A DNA stretch of 32,599 nucleotides from Candidatus Gastranaerophilales bacterium (GTDB lineage: Bacteria; Cyanobacteriota; Vampirovibrionia; Gastranaerophilales; UBA9579). Location: positions 1 through 32,599 of the forward strand of contig JAQVCB010000012.1 of the NCBI GenBank assembly GCA_028689995.1, given 5' to 3'. How positions within the stretch are numbered: position 1 is the first letter of the stretch; each line of letters begins with the position of its first letter. Below, piece by piece: positions 3,262 through 24,617 of the stretch. Below the pieces are notes generated by a model. It was not told the origin of the DNA. It saw only the letters and a list, made by a program, of their open reading frames with translations, and did not search any database. The position numbers and the translations under genes were made by a program.

Positions 3262-5214
3262 ATGAAACAGATAGAACTTCTCTCCCCGGCAAAGGATCTG
3301 GAATGTGGAATTGCGGCAATAAAATGCGGCGCTGATGCAGTCTATATTGGTGCAGGTAAATTTGGAGCCAGAGCATCAGCCGGAAATAACATTGAAGATA
3401 TAAAAAAACTCATTCAATTTGCCCATTTTTACAGGGCAAAGGTCTATGTTACCGTTAATACGATTCTTAACGACAACGAGATTGAACAAGCTCAAAAACT
3501 TATAAAAAAACTTTATGAAATATGTGCAGATGCAATAATTATTCAGGACATGGGGTTATTAGAACTGGATTTACCGCCAGTTCCAATTTTTGCAAGTACA
3601 CAATGCCATAATAGTACTTCAGAAAAAGTAAAATTTTTGGAGCAAGCTGGTTTTAGCAGGGTAATACTTGCAAGGGAACTTTCTCTCGAGCAGATTAAAG
3701 AAATAAGATTTCAAAGTGATATTGAGCTTGAATCTTTTATACACGGGGCTCTTTGTGTCAGCTACAGCGGGCAGTGTTATATGAGTTATGCCAATGGAGG
3801 CAGATCTGGCAACAAAGGAGAATGTGCTCAACCATGCCGCAAGCAGTATGAACTTGTTGATTCAAATAACAAGGTTATTTCAGACAAAAAACATTTACTT
3901 TCTTTAAAAGATTTAAACCTGTCAAATCATATAAAAGACCTGATAGATGCAGGGATAACCTCATTCAAGATCGAAGGCAGGCTAAAAGATATCAATTATA
4001 TAAAGAATATAGTTTCATTTTATAGAACTAAAATAGATGAAGTTCTTGAAGGAACTCGGCATAAAAAAAGTTCCAGCGGTAATGTCTTTATAGACTTTGT
4101 TCCTGATTTTTCAAAAACTTTTAACAGGGGCCATTCAGAATATTTTATAAACGGTAGAAAAAAAGAAATAACATCTTCGGATACCCCGAAATTCAAGGGA
4201 GAAGGTGTTGGAAAAATAACAAAAATATTCAAAGACAGCTTTATTCTGGATAAAAAGCCTGAAGTAATAATGAATAACGGTGATGGAATAAGTTTTTTCG
4301 ATCAACAAGGAAATCTATGCGGTACGGTGATAAATAATGTTGATGATAACAGAATTTATCCTAATATCATGAATTTTTTGCAGGTTAATACATACATATA
4401 TAGAAATCTTGATCATGAATTTATTAAAAAGATAAAAAATTCCAAAATTGAAAGAAAAATTCAGTTAAATTTGTGGCTTTCAGAAACTCCAGCAGGCTTA
4501 ATACTTCATGCCATAGATGAAGATGGTATTGAAGCAAATGCTTCAATTGATACAGAAAAAGAAATAGCAAAAAATCCACAAATGGCTATTGATAACATTA
4601 AAAAACAACTTTTAAAACTGGGAGAAACTGACTTTATTTGTTCAGATATAGAGATTAATCTTAAAAATAGCTATTTTATAAGAATAAAAGATCTTAATGA
4701 ATTGCGAAGAACCCTGATTGAAAAGCTTGAGCAAAACCGTATAAATAGCTATGAAAGACAAAATAGAATAATTACTAAAAACGATTATCAATATCATCTT
4801 TCGGAGCTCACTTTTGAAGGTAATGTCTTAAACAGCTATGCTGAAAAGTTTTATACAAGGCATGGAGTAAAGGCAATAGAACCTGCGGCAGAATCAGGAC
4901 TGGATATGAAGGACAGGAAAATTATGACAACAAAGCATTGTCTTAAATATCAATTTGACCTGTGTCCAAAGCATGATCTAGTATCAAGGCAGTTGTGCCA
5001 GCTCCTTGCCGCCACAACTGCCTTTCACCTTTCTAAGGTCGGGTTTGAAAAATTCGATTTTCCCAGAAAATCAAAATTTTCCCGTACCCTCGAAAAGAAT
5101 AAATCAGATTTTCAAGCACCCTTTTATCTTGTAGATGATCAGAATAAAAAATATTTACTCAAATTCAACTGTAAAAGATGTGAAATGGAGATTTATTTAA
5201 ACTTTACTAAATAG
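3262..5214 (+). CDS. rlhA: 23S rRNA C2501 hydroxylase-type U32 family protein (RlhA/YdcP-like) with C-terminal insertion
   Basis: The start at 3262 follows GAAGGGTAAG and gives the canonical U32 N-terminus MKQIELLSPAKD; the open frame reaches 38 codons further upstream but that part looks non-coding. The 650-residue length and architecture match E. coli RlhA (YdcP), which is required for 5-hydroxylation of C2501 in 23S rRNA. Family hallmarks are NTILND, QDMGLLELDLPPV, STQC, LARELSLEQI and FIHGALCVSYSGQC, then GECAQPC. Cys165, Cys172, Cys188 and Cys192 are in the region that carries Fe-S ligands in U32 relatives. The second half is the DUF3656-type domain ending in TTKHCLKY, LCPKH and FNCKRCEMEI. 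Between LCPKH and FYLVDD there are about 47 residues where E. coli (from memory) has about 11; this extra segment holds two palindromes, one being element P1. Peptidase activity is not expected. An older annotation would be 'peptidase U32/collagenase-like'. Confidence 0.85.
   Translation: MKQIELLSPAKDLECGIAAIKCGADAVYIGAGKFGARASAGNNIEDIKKLIQFAHFYRAKVYVTVNTILNDNEIEQAQKLIKKLYEICADAIIIQDMGLLELDLPPVPIFASTQCHNSTSEKVKFLEQAGFSRVILARELSLEQIKEIRFQSDIELESFIHGALCVSYSGQCYMSYANGGRSGNKGECAQPCRKQYELVDSNNKVISDKKHLLSLKDLNLSNHIKDLIDAGITSFKIEGRLKDINYIKNIVSFYRTKIDEVLEGTRHKKSSSGNVFIDFVPDFSKTFNRGHSEYFINGRKKEITSSDTPKFKGEGVGKITKIFKDSFILDKKPEVIMNNGDGISFFDQQGNLCGTVINNVDDNRIYPNIMNFLQVNTYIYRNLDHEFIKKIKNSKIERKIQLNLWLSETPAGLILHAIDEDGIEANASIDTEKEIAKNPQMAIDNIKKQLLKLGETDFICSDIEINLKNSYFIRIKDLNELRRTLIEKLEQNRINSYERQNRIITKNDYQYHLSELTFEGNVLNSYAEKFYTRHGVKAIEPAAESGLDMKDRKIMTTKHCLKYQFDLCPKHDLVSRQLCQLLAATTAFHLSKVGFEKFDFPRKSKFSRTLEKNKSDFQAPFYLVDDQNKKYLLKFNCKRCEMEIYLNFTK
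4986..5024. repeat. 12-bp perfect inverted repeat inside rlhA
   Basis: AAGGCAGTTGTG at 4986-4997 is exactly complementary to CACAACTGCCTT at 5013-5024, with a 15-base loop. It lies in frame in the inserted C-terminal segment of rlhA (about residues 575-588), just before palindromic element P1. No second copy was seen in this window. Confidence 0.8.
5040..5092 (-). repeat. Palindromic coding element P1 (inside rlhA)
   Basis: An imperfect palindrome around a CCCAG centre: the left arm GGGTTTGAAAAATTCGATTT mirrors the right arm AAATCAAAATTTTCCCG. Read on the minus strand it matches element P2 in the porin gene without gaps at 38 of the first 45 positions (hand count), starting GAGGGT and containing TTGATTTTCTGG versus CTGATTTTCTGG. 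In rlhA it is read on the other strand and encodes about residues 593-611 (EKFDFPRKSKFSRTLE). It sits where RlhA relatives have no sequence, so an insertion is the simplest explanation. Confidence 0.75.
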
Positions 5215-5235
5215 AGGTTTGAATTTAAAATAAAG

Positions 5236-5427
5236 TATACAAAAACGAGTTTATATTTCCGAAGGCTTGAACGAGTTACTAAAAGCCTCCAGCTCCTGCT
5301 GATCGCAGCAGCTTCAGCTTTTTTATACTCCCACTACCGTATATCGCCTCCGAAAATAACGCTCCTACTACCGAATACCACATTTTGTTTGCTGTTAAAA
5401 CCCCAAATTCATTTTTGAAGTGGTATA
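5236..5427. repeat. Repeat A, copy 2 (upstream of leuA)
   Basis: Second direct copy of the ~190-bp repeat seen at about 1471-1660. It keeps the CTGCTGATCGCAGCAG palindrome and the two blocks GCCTCCGAAAATAACGCTCC and CTACTACCGAATACCA. Near its right half ATACCAC (5386-5392 region) and GTGGTAT (5420-5426 region) can pair. It fills almost the whole 228-bp gap between the rlhA stop and leuA. The 15-bp outer inverted repeats of copy 1 are not preserved in this copy. Confidence 0.85.
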
Positions 5428-5429
5428 AT
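5421..5429 (+). promoter_or_regulatory. Extended -10 promoter at the end of repeat A2, driving leuA
   Basis: TGGTATAAT matches the extended -10 consensus TGnTATAAT exactly. No good -35 hexamer lies 16-18 bp upstream, which extended -10 promoters can do without. Transcription would start near 5436, about 25 bases before the leuA ATG at 5461. The same position in repeat A1 reads TGGTATACT. Confidence 0.55.
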
Positions 5430-5460
5430 TTAGAAGTTTAAAATGATGGAAGAGAAATTA

Positions 5461-7018: not shown

Positions 7019-8425
7019 TTATAGTGTTAGTACACTTCTTAAACCCAATACATAAGCGTTTTTAAATTGACCTCCCGGGTGAAAAACTATTTGAAAGTCA
7101 GGTTGAATAAAAAACCATGGCTTTATTTGAAACAGATAAAAAGTTTCAAGTGCAGTTTCAGTTCTTGCGCCACTGACATATTTGCTAAAATTGGCAAATC
7201 CTGCGCCAATACCTGTTGCGTCATTATCTCGTTTTGGTATTAAACCTTGATAGGAGACACCAAAAGCATACGTTCTTGTAACAGGGTTTCTGTCTTGAGG
7301 CGCCCAGCCAAATTGACCTACAAGAGATAATCCCTGAGTATCTTCTCCTTTAGCATTTTCTTTTAGGATAAGGGGATTAAAGCCTGCATATACTCCAAAA
7401 TTTGAGGAGAATGTTCCAGGGTTTGCCAAATCTTGTATTTGGTTTGTATCCTGCCAGAATCCGTATACCTGTTTTCCCTGTAAACGTTTATAAGTTGGAA
7501 ATAAATTTATTTCGGCTATTGTAAAATGTCCTTTCCCTGTAAATAGCGAATTAATTTCGGTAGATTTAGACGGATCAAGTGATTTAAACCAACCTGTTCT
7601 TAGTGCAAACACTTTATTGGGCTGAATTAATGCTGATATTCCTCCTGACGTAGCCGGAAATGTTGGAATTGGAATTGTTCGTGTAGAACTAAATGCAAAA
7701 TTTATAAATTTTACTCCCGGTCCAATAAATGCTAAATCAAGGTTAGCATCCTGTTTCCCAAATTTTATATTGAGTTTGTCAGAGAACAAACTTTGTCTGT
7801 ACCAGTATTCTGTTAATTCAGTAATAGGTCTGGTATCAAAGGAGTTTATTGCCTGTACATCACCTACATAATCCTGATCTATACTTGAACCTGTACTGTT
7901 TTGAAATAATACGTATATGTGTCCTCCCTTTAAGGGGACAAGTTTTTCTGTATGTATACCCAGAGCAACGCTTGTCAATCCCTGCGCAACAGGTTTATTT
8001 GTAGGGTTTTTTCCACCATAAAGCTTTTGGAAATTGTTATTCATATAGTTGACAATTATAGAGATTCCATATTCTGCAAGTTCCTCTCTCAGTCCAAACC
8101 AGTTCTTTGTTGCATAATTGCTTATTGTTGCCTGTTCAAAAGTAGGAAGATCTATAATCTGACTCTGATCAGAATTTTGTTCTTCTTTCTCATTTTGGTC
8201 GGCTATATTCAGTAAGTTATTATTATCAGGTAATTTAAGTTCTATAATTTCAAGCTCTTGTTTTTCAGGAAGTTCCTGTGCAAAAACCTGAAAATTAGAT
8301 AATAAAATTATGCTTAAGCAAAATGCTAAAGTCAGGATGGCAGTATGAAGATGCGGAAAAATTACATTTTTCCAGAAAATCAGAATTTCTCCGCACCCTC
8401 TAGATATTTCATGTTTTATTTTCAT
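7019..8425 (-). CDS. OprB-family (carbohydrate-selective) outer-membrane porin
   Basis: From the ATG at 8425 the protein has 468 residues. It has a long N-terminal lead, a hydrophobic signal core (AILTLAFCLSIILL) and a probable signal-peptidase-I site after VFA. The mature part shows OprB features: NWFGLREELAEYGISI, then YGG, ELTEYWYRQSLFSDKLNIKFGK with DANLDLAF, many alternating beta-strand segments, and a C-terminal beta-strand (YVLGLRSVLTL). A low-complexity Asn/Glu/Gln linker precedes the barrel. No S-layer-homology domain is present, unlike many cyanobacterial OprB proteins. An upstream ATG at 8470 would add 15 residues, but its frame is not conserved in repeat copy B2, whereas MKIKHEI is. 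Neither start has a clear Shine-Dalgarno. The first ~9 codons are repeat B and the next ~18 are element P2, so the N-terminus appears built from repeat DNA. Confidence 0.8.
   Translation of the reverse strand: MKIKHEISRGCGEILIFWKNVIFPHLHTAILTLAFCLSIILLSNFQVFAQELPEKQELEIIELKLPDNNNLLNIADQNEKEEQNSDQSQIIDLPTFEQATISNYATKNWFGLREELAEYGISIIVNYMNNNFQKLYGGKNPTNKPVAQGLTSVALGIHTEKLVPLKGGHIYVLFQNSTGSSIDQDYVGDVQAINSFDTRPITELTEYWYRQSLFSDKLNIKFGKQDANLDLAFIGPGVKFINFAFSSTRTIPIPTFPATSGGISALIQPNKVFALRTGWFKSLDPSKSTEINSLFTGKGHFTIAEINLFPTYKRLQGKQVYGFWQDTNQIQDLANPGTFSSNFGVYAGFNPLILKENAKGEDTQGLSLVGQFGWAPQDRNPVTRTYAFGVSYQGLIPKRDNDATGIGAGFANFSKYVSGARTETALETFYLFQIKPWFFIQPDFQIVFHPGGQFKNAYVLGLRSVLTL
8346..8400 (-). repeat. 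Palindromic coding element P2 (5' end of the porin gene)
   Basis: An imperfect palindrome: GATGCGGAAAAATTACATTT on the left mirrors AAATCAGAATTTCTCCGCAC on the right around TCCAG. On the minus strand it begins GAGGGTGCGGAG and aligns without gaps to P1 in rlhA (38 of the first 45 positions by hand). In the porin it is translated as GCGEILIFWKNVIFPHLH, just before the signal-peptide core, and abuts repeat B1. Confidence 0.75.
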
Positions 8426-8587
8426 ATATGCAAGCAGGAGTTGAGAAAAGCCGGGAAATTTAATTTGCATATGATTTGAGCTTTTCGCAACTCGTTCCTA
8501 AATTATGAAATTACAGGGTTAATCGTAGGTAAATCCTGTAAAAAATGACATTACTAATATTGCTACTTGTATTGCCTATGTGTATTA
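8401..8587 (-). repeat. Repeat B, copy 1
   Basis: About 187 bp repeated in the same orientation at 11180-11367, differing at only a dozen or so positions by eye. Internal arms AGTTGAGAAAAGC (8439-8451) and GCTTTTCGCAACT (8480-8492) pair with one mismatch. On the minus strand it carries the upstream region and first codons (MKIKHEI) of the porin gene. Confidence 0.9.
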
Positions 8588-8849: not shown

Positions 8850-10046
8850 TTAAGAAATTTTTTGTTTTAATTCATCAATTTCTTTTTGCTGTTTCTGAAT
8901 GATATCATTAAGTTCTCTTATTGAGTTAACCAAAACAGGAATTAATTTATTTTGTGAAATAGACCATAATTCTTTAGACTCGTCTTTGGGTTTCGATACT
9001 ACTTCTGGAATAACTTCATAAATTTCCTGAGCAAAGAAACCTATCTCTTGTATGTTCTCATCTGATAAAACCAATTCAGGAGTTTTAGTTAAATCATCAA
9101 TCAGCTCAGTAACTTTTTCGCCATTTTCATTAGTTATTTCTTTTTCTATTTTAGGATAAACAAATTCTGAAGAATGATGCGTATATTTTCTAGGCTTTAA
9201 CTGTAATATTTCATTTAAGCCATAGTGACAAGAGCCCAGATCTTTTTTAATTCTTGAGTCAGAATAAGTGTCCCAAGCTTGAGCTTTTGCCTTTTTAGTG
9301 GAACTATTAGGAAGTTGCAACAGATAATTTGTATCAACAACCGAAGAAGCGCCAATATAAACTGCGCTATTCTCATTAATAGTCATTGCTGAAGCAAATG
9401 TTGTTGAGCCATTGGGAGTAACATTTATATTAATCTTTGCTCCTTGAGCAGTATCAGACCAATTTTCCGCTGCCCTTAATTGAATACTTGTTCTTGAAGT
9501 TGAACTAAAATCCGAACTTCCATAACCTTTTCCTGAAATGAAAATTAAAAAATCTCCTAATTGTACCGGTTGCGGATTACCAATAGTTCCCCTGGCTCTA
9601 TTTCCTATTACATAGCATGCATTATTATCATCATTATATGTTGTTAAATTAATGGCTGGGATTGATGAAGTTATGTTAAGTCCCTCAAAGGTTGGGCTGG
9701 AAGTATTTCTTACATCCTGATTAATGTTTTCTGAAATATCAACGCCATCAACCAATCCATCCTTAACTGGTACACTTTCAATTGTTACACCTTGATCAGT
9801 AGTTTTTTCATTAATTGTGTCAGTACTGATTTCCACAAAGGTTGGGCTGGAAGTATTTCTTACATCCTGATTAATGTTTTCTGAAATATCAACGCCATCA
9901 ACCAATCCATCCTTAACTGGTACACTTTCAATTGTTACGCCTTGATCAGTAGTTTTTTCATTAATTGTGTCAGTGTTAACGCTTTCAGCTTCAATACTTA
10001 TTGCAGTCAATTTCCCACTATCATCAACAGTTACAAGTATACTCAC
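8850..10046 (-). CDS. Tail-fibre-like surface protein with C-terminal S74 intramolecular chaperone domain
   Basis: I start the gene at GTG 10046 because GGAGG lies eight bases upstream; the longer frame from TTG 10061 would put that ribosome site inside the gene. The product has about 398 residues and no signal peptide. Order: short N-terminal segment; two near-identical repeats with the phage/viral-fibre motif TDTINEKTTDQGVTIES; a beta-rich middle; then a C-terminal Peptidase_S74 domain of about 140 residues with YSDSRIKKD (the Ser-Arg-Ile-Lys region where these domains self-cleave), EIGFFAQEI and a final coiled coil. S74 domains help trimeric fibres fold and are then cut off. No other phage structural genes are nearby, so this is an isolated fibre: a domesticated adhesin, a prophage remnant or a horizontally acquired gene. 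It lies in a cassette bounded by direct copies of repeat B. Confidence 0.8.
   Translation of the reverse strand: MSILVTVDDSGKLTAISIEAESVNTDTINEKTTDQGVTIESVPVKDGLVDGVDISENINQDVRNTSSPTFVEISTDTINEKTTDQGVTIESVPVKDGLVDGVDISENINQDVRNTSSPTFEGLNITSSIPAINLTTYNDDNNACYVIGNRARGTIGNPQPVQLGDFLIFISGKGYGSSDFSSTSRTSIQLRAAENWSDTAQGAKININVTPNGSTTFASAMTINENSAVYIGASSVVDTNYLLQLPNSSTKKAKAQAWDTYSDSRIKKDLGSCHYGLNEILQLKPRKYTHHSSEFVYPKIEKEITNENGEKVTELIDDLTKTPELVLSDENIQEIGFFAQEIYEVIPEVVSKPKDESKELWSISQNKLIPVLVNSIRELNDIIQKQQKEIDELKQKIS
9686..9974. repeat. Tandem 150-bp duplication inside the S74 gene
   Basis: The 139-bp blocks 9686-9824 and 9836-9974 are identical except for one base that I could find (A versus G in TGTTACRCC) and are spaced 150 bp apart, exactly 50 codons. 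The reading frame is kept and each unit encodes TDTINEKTTDQGVTIES... through ...NTSSPTF. Confidence 0.9.
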
Positions 10047-10102
10047 AAAATTTTCCTCCAAACACTCTGTAAAAAGTATATTTAAATTATAAAAATATTA
10101 AC

Positions 10103-11004: not shown

Positions 11005-11055
11005 TACATAAACCCTGCAATGAAAATGATGAATTTTCATTGCAGGGTTTATGTA
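11005..11055. repeat. Perfect 23-bp inverted repeat (hairpin)
   Basis: The arm 11005-11027 (TACATAAACCCTGCAATGAA...) is exactly complementary to 11033-11055, separated by the five bases GATGA. It begins about 90 bp after the methyltransferase stop. Only a short TTTT follows on the plus strand, so it is not a textbook terminator, though it could act as one or protect an mRNA 3' end. Short open frames through it look like artefacts. It is followed by a GCGAAGCGGGAGTGATGAAT stretch that resembles sequence at about 22818. Confidence 0.85.
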
Positions 11056-11179
11056 ACTCATTTTAAGCGAAGCGGGAGTGATGAATTTGAGCCGCTGATT
11101 CAACCAAAACTTTTGATTTATCAAGTTTTCCTATCAGTTGCTGAAGAATCAGATCATAATTAGCTTTTTCTGCATCCTT

Positions 11180-11367
11180 TAGGTATTTCATGTTTTATTT
11201 TCATATATGCAAGCAGGAGTTGAGAAAAGCCGGGGAATTTTAATTTGCATACGGTGTAAGCTTTTCGCAACTCGTTCCTAAATTATGAAATTACAGGGTT
11301 AATCGTAGGTAAATCTGGTAAAAAATGACATTACTAATATTGCTAATTGTATTGCCAACGTGTATTA
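11180..11367 (-). repeat. Repeat B, copy 2
   Basis: Direct copy of 8401-8587. On its minus strand it keeps the start MKIKHEI, but the frame stops a few codons later (…KGCRKS then TAA), so here it leads into no gene. The in-frame MQIK start seen in copy 1 is frame-shifted by one base. The stretch 11368-11468 between it and purB shows only AT-rich leader sequence. Confidence 0.9.
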
Positions 11368-24490: not shown

Positions 24491-24503
24491 ATAATCAGAG
24501 TTT

Positions 24504-24534
24504 GGAAATCAAAAGCTAAAAGCTTTTGATTTCC
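24504..24534. other. Perfect 14-bp hairpin between tuf and rpsJ
   Basis: GGAAATCAAAAGCT and AGCTTTTGATTTCC are exact complements with a three-base loop. No T-run follows, so it is more likely an mRNA processing or stability element, or a partial attenuator, than a full terminator. Confidence 0.65.
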
Positions 24535-24617
24535 ATCTCAAAAAACTAGGCTGGGTTGCCGGCATAAACAGTTAGTAAATTAGTAAAGTAGGAAAGGTTT
24601 CGATCGGAAGTGCAATT

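Follow-up and report, generated by a model that had tools for sequence, protein, structure and literature searches.

A palindromic transposable element probably translated in frame within an RlhA-like protein of a Gastranaerophilales bacterium

Can a palindromic piece of dispersed DNA settle inside a conserved protein and be read as part of it? This question is raised by a single gene in the stretch of DNA analyzed here (32,599 nucleotides, hereafter "the window"), for which the initial annotation had proposed that palindromic DNA was accepted in frame between the conserved cysteine motifs of an rRNA-modifying enzyme. The host ORF (3262–5214) matches Pfam Peptidase_U32 (3e-76) and DUF3656 (7e-22), i.e., the domain set of RlhA, and its conserved cysteines are intact on either side of the insert (C165, C172, C188, C192, C560, C568, C637, and C640), so that the features of RlhA membership are present in the protein. 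Orthologues of the gene were found in 60 of 60 relatives. By the similarity of its RlhA protein, the genome most likely belongs to the Gastranaerophilales (Melainabacteria) or lies near them. We name the gene only "RlhA-like" because the best-matching NCBIfam models score below their own cut-offs, and hydroxylation of C2501 in 23S rRNA is an activity predicted from its domains. The gene and the parts of its insert are as follows:

3262..5214, plus strand: RlhA-like U32-family gene carrying the insertion, 650 aa from ATG.
4975..5091, plus strand: element copy of 117 bp without the left hairpin; ~30 matches in its own genome at up to 93% identity; covariance model E-value 1.7e-24; absent from orthologues.
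4972..4978, plus strand: ambiguous left junction CATGATC, a heptamer common to host codons and element variants in the alignment of copies.
4986..5024, plus strand: element hairpin 2, arms 4986–5002/5008–5024 (17 bp, 88%), with inner perfect 12-bp arms 4986–4997/5013–5024.
5047..5081, plus strand: element hairpin 3 (P1 in the initial annotation), arms 5047–5062/5066–5081 (16 bp, 88%).
5076..5091, minus strand: right terminal inverted repeat GAGGGTACGGGAAAAT, 1 mismatch to GARGRTRCGGAAAAAT.

The 88% values for the arms of hairpins 2 and 3 come from a search with mismatches allowed.

The loop is missing from all 29 same-order orthologues inspected, as well as from orthologues in GTDB contigs, including Candidatus Gastranaerophilales and Bacteroidetes MAGs; a shared long loop in relatives, named at the outset as the finding that would speak against an insertion, was thus not seen. 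Relative to the three closest orthologues (62–64% identical, with both flanks and their cysteine motifs conserved), this protein is longer by exactly 40 residues (120 bp) rather than the ~36 first estimated, and 49 residues rather than about 47 separate LCPKH from FYLVDD; the long loop and its extra residues stand, with both lengths corrected. Foreign DNA had been drawn as far as position 5125, but the right end lies at 5091 and 5092–5125 are native. On the left, the boundary cannot be placed exactly within CATGATC, because this heptamer also occurs in other element copies. Read in element frame 0, the copy corresponds to residues 572–610, and the conserved tail FNCKRCEM follows in frame. Together with the dispersed copies and the empty orthologue sites (29/29), this bears out the proposal that palindromic DNA was accepted in frame in the RlhA-like protein. 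An ordinary long RlhA loop that is palindromic by coincidence has practically no probability, being absent from these orthologues and made of DNA that recurs ~30 times in unrelated places.

A structure prediction, suggested along with the initial annotation, places the insert in a low-confidence loop on a confident fold. AlphaFold2 (24 sequences) gave a mean pLDDT of 87.5 for the RlhA-like protein, with values <50 only at residues 572–580 and 594–616; this confinement to insert segments matches the expectation for a tolerated flexible loop, and the insert is probably disordered. The same loop could also be taken as damage, i.e., the insertion may have inactivated the gene, leaving an ORF that is open by chance and a protein that is non-functional or degraded. 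A 40-residue disordered loop near conserved cysteine motifs could indeed harm the enzyme, and the interrupted gene is known from one genome only. However, the frame is kept across the 117 bp and the native tail, the conserved cysteines are intact on both sides, and at least six further reading frames show the same pattern. We therefore regard inactivation as unlikely, and the kept frame and conserved residues suggest that the RlhA-like enzyme probably still works.

The palindromic nature of the insert is beyond what its composition would produce. The 12-bp inverted repeat at 4986–4997/5013–5024 is perfect as first described, its arms being exact reverse complements; of 300 dinucleotide-shuffled versions of the 151 bp, only one reached an arm of this length (mean longest arm, 6.4), and perfect 12-bp arms occur at only three loci in the entire window. 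Folding of 4975–5091 was likewise far from that of shuffles, with z-scores of -7.5 as DNA and -6.7 as RNA. Both of the "two adjacent palindromes" of the initial annotation are present, but they are not separate units: two independent palindromes were rejected because the alignment of copies and the covariance model show one element. Full copies measure 156 bp, with three hairpins and inverted GARGRTGCGGAAAAAT ends, and are ordered as a left hairpin (GAAGATGCGGAAAAATTGCATTTTTCCTGCATCTTC), a linker, a middle hairpin (AAGGCAG...CTACCTT), a second linker (TTTCACCTTTCCAAGGTCGGG), and a right hairpin ending in CCGCACCCTC. The RlhA-like copy consists of hairpins 2 and 3, the left hairpin having been lost, and the left end is diverged or lost in some other copies as well. 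In its own genome, the covariance model (156 positions) yielded 41 matches at E ≤ 0.1, 30 of them at E < 1e-4, and the inverted 16-mer GARGRTRCGGAAAAAT found at both ends had 43 genome matches vs 1 for a reversed control pattern.

Beyond this genome, the element was detected at E ≤ 1e-6 in 8 of 383 genomes of the order (its own included), spanning several families. In distant copies, the terminal repeats, the linkers, and the three hairpins are all retained, and the hairpin arms have changed yet still pair. Across seven genomes, 86 two-sided changes were counted vs 39 in shuffles (0/500 as high), in a test of 16 sequences whose shuffle leaves relatedness in, and sliding the hairpin partners reduced every covariation measure. 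Because the arms covary across genomes of the order, we consider the three hairpins to be maintained, be it for transposition or at the level of RNA. Searches of Rfam returned no known RNA family, ribozyme, or intron match; the element was unmatched in 72,556 plasmid and 50,697 phage records, its core was not found in viral contig collections, and the exact core pattern was not found in GTDB contigs. In one genome of the order, six full copies of a distant subfamily are almost identical to each other; they appear to lie outside genes and suggest recent activity there. Separately, a second repeat of ~80 bp occurs at the same point in the hairpin 3 loop in at least four copies.

Next, we evaluated the flanks of the copies for traces of transposition. 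For 10 two-ended copies in the genome of the RlhA-like gene, the flanking 3 bp match at 24 of 30 positions compared to 12.8 in shuffles (sd 2.6, p ~1e-4), with no signal at duplication lengths 2 and 4–9. Twelve copies from other genomes gave 25 matches out of 36 at 3 bp (p 4e-4), along with some excess at 4 bp (p 0.0015), and all 22 copies pooled reached 49/66 vs 25.9 expected, a value attained in 0 of 20,000 shuffles. Since the 3-bp target is duplicated, a full insertion adds 156 + 3 = 159 bp, which is a multiple of three. The RlhA-like copy shows no target duplication of its own, because its left end is lost. Short, dispersed, multicopy, bounded by terminal inverted repeats, and flanked by a target duplication, the element has the sequence characteristics by which we assign it to the non-autonomous transposable elements known as MITEs; it has no transposase coding capacity.

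Palindromes of the REP type, spread by a RAYT (Y1 transposase), would offer another route to a dispersed element composed of hairpins, and two Y1_Tnp (RAYT-like) genes over cut-off are present in this genome. REP elements are palindromes of 20–40 bp linked to a RAYT, and to our knowledge neither inverted terminal repeats nor a 3-bp target duplication is expected of them. Both are found here, however, the element is 156 bp long, and neither Y1 gene has copies of the element or its ends nearby, so that membership among REP elements with a RAYT was rejected and such an origin appears very unlikely. As for a partner of the MITE itself, no transposase lies near solitary element ends in this genome, and both IS3-like genes of the assembly are without the element's ends. 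An autonomous partner with these ends was not found in the assembly, an absence that is weak evidence at 89% completeness and 201 contigs.

The behavior seen in the RlhA-like gene is not confined to it. As judged on 1.5-kb flanks, 7 of the 16 copies of its subfamily lie in ORFs, all in the sense orientation, so that the element is inside at least six reading frames of the genome besides the rlhA-like ORF. A second subfamily, with stops in almost all of its frames, is represented by seven copies, none of them located in an ORF. The solute-binding protein has exactly 53 extra residues (159 bp) relative to 9 of 10 orthologues aligned, and the 5'-nucleotidase carries the element at a site empty in five orthologues; in other coding copies, the element directly follows a signal peptide, is C-terminal in a deaminase, or is N-terminal in the phosphoglycerate mutase GpmI. 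Proteins with a whole or partial element gain 40 to 53 amino acids. In the GpmI copy, which is among those with the ~80-bp repeat in the hairpin 3 loop, that repeat, too, is in frame, and the start codon may come from it.

These copies differ in the sense frame that is read: element frame 0 in the RlhA-like protein and frame 1 in the other coding copies, with the frame 1 peptide IQCQGSSAGSSPPQLPFTFPRSGLKN common to most coding copies. In the consensus, sense frames 0 and 1 are free of stops, which are found in sense frame 2 and all three antisense frames. With two of six frames open, roughly one in three random in-gene insertions would be readable, and with stops in all antisense frames, survivorship suffices to explain the sense-only orientation. 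Two open frames were also considered as a sign of selection for coding, an idea that found no support since at least two are open in 58% of dinucleotide shuffles.

It could be argued that the element never reaches the mature protein, being removed from the RNA like an intron or skipped by the ribosome as in mobile bypassing elements; its hairpins are strong at the RNA level and, as the covariation indicates, conserved across genomes. Against this, all seven coding copies are stop-free in the frame used and add a length that is a multiple of three, neither of which would be needed for skipping or splicing. The lack of ribozyme or intron matches in Rfam and the identical anatomy of intergenic copies point the same way, making removal or skipping highly improbable.

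One copy appears to join two genes. In this putative junction, which spans two contigs via an exact 127-bp overlap, the rsmA frame would run through the element into ispE, giving 617 residues. Three relatives have ispE as a separate gene that starts on its own, and the usual start codon region of ispE is lost in the joined rsmA–element–ispE frame.

Within the window, a mini-copy consisting of the two element ends only was also found:

8347..8400, plus strand: mini-copy of 54 bp at the start of the OprB porin ORF, antisense to it, 18 codons; flanks TAT/TAG.

Several other repeats share the window. A 203-bp repeat (8386–8587 and 11165–11367, 92% identical) covers the OprB ORF start region. A 199-bp direct repeat (1466–1664 and 5232–5430, 90% identical), whose second copy starts 18 bp past the rlhA stop codon, is probably another dispersed family. 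Perfect palindromes were noted at 11005–11055 (23-bp arms, 5-nt loop) and at 24503–24535 (15-bp arms), the latter just after the EF-Tu gene and possibly a terminator. A 142-bp tandem duplication, 99% identical, occupies 9683–9974 inside the minus-strand ORF 8850–10061.

The closest parallel in behavior is found among the Rickettsia palindromic elements (RPEs; Ogata et al. 2000 and 2002), which are ~100–150 bp palindromic sequences located in frame in ORFs (PMC10969869, PMC3767692). As with RPEs, nearly half of the copies here are inside ORFs, in unrelated metabolic genes, and would be translated as an added segment (PMC10969869, PMC3767692), and the hallmark of the RPE type, a palindromic element of ~100–150 bp lying in ORFs with the frame unbroken, is seen here as well. 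Unlike RPEs, however, this element belongs to an unrelated, Gastranaerophilales-like lineage, uses two different sense frames, appears in one copy to join two genes, and has measured terminal repeats, a 3-bp target duplication, and three hairpins that covary across the order. We thus suggest that the element works like an RPE, and we do not claim RPE membership, because the likeness drawn here is one of behavior and two frames are used. Enterobacterial RU-1, RU-2, RU-3, and ERIC, which are MITE-like, 103–168 bp long, and keep open frames within genes (PMC2759123), resemble the element by description in size class and intragenic open frames, in different hosts. Coxiella QMITE1 and QMITE2 reach ~50 copies per genome, with terminal inverted repeats, direct repeats of 2–3 nt for QMITE1, and effects on ORFs (PMC5896051); where genes of known function are affected, the effects mostly amount to short terminal overlaps, whereas here whole copies are found in the middle of conserved proteins. 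In the literature collection searched, elements of this kind were not described for Gastranaerophilales or Melainabacteria, which is only a weak sign of novelty.

Taken together, we conclude, with a probability of about 0.88, that the loop in the RlhA-like protein is a copy of a non-autonomous transposable element (MITE) that was inserted and is translated in frame. Its mobilization would have depended on a DDE-type transposase provided in trans, and selection would have removed gene-breaking insertions, leaving those in tolerant loops. In rlhA, the left hairpin would have been lost with the frame unchanged, resulting in 40 extra residues that would form a flexible loop between the C-terminal cysteine motifs.

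More speculatively, and at odds we place well below even, an order-wide MITE family with maintained hairpins, whose 156 + 3 bp and few stops would let it continually supply in-frame loops, tails, and gene fusions (with RsmA–element–IspE as one protein), might represent an independent, non-rickettsial origin of protein-coding palindromes. Protein-coding palindromes at high frequency have been known mainly from Rickettsia, and the same behavior is now seen in a lineage unrelated to it, where the ends of the element, its target duplication, the empty sites, and its distant relatives can all be observed together. Annotators of such genomes should bear in mind that an odd loop or a seeming gene fusion may consist of element DNA, and the rate and cost at which transposable elements become parts of proteins become testable.
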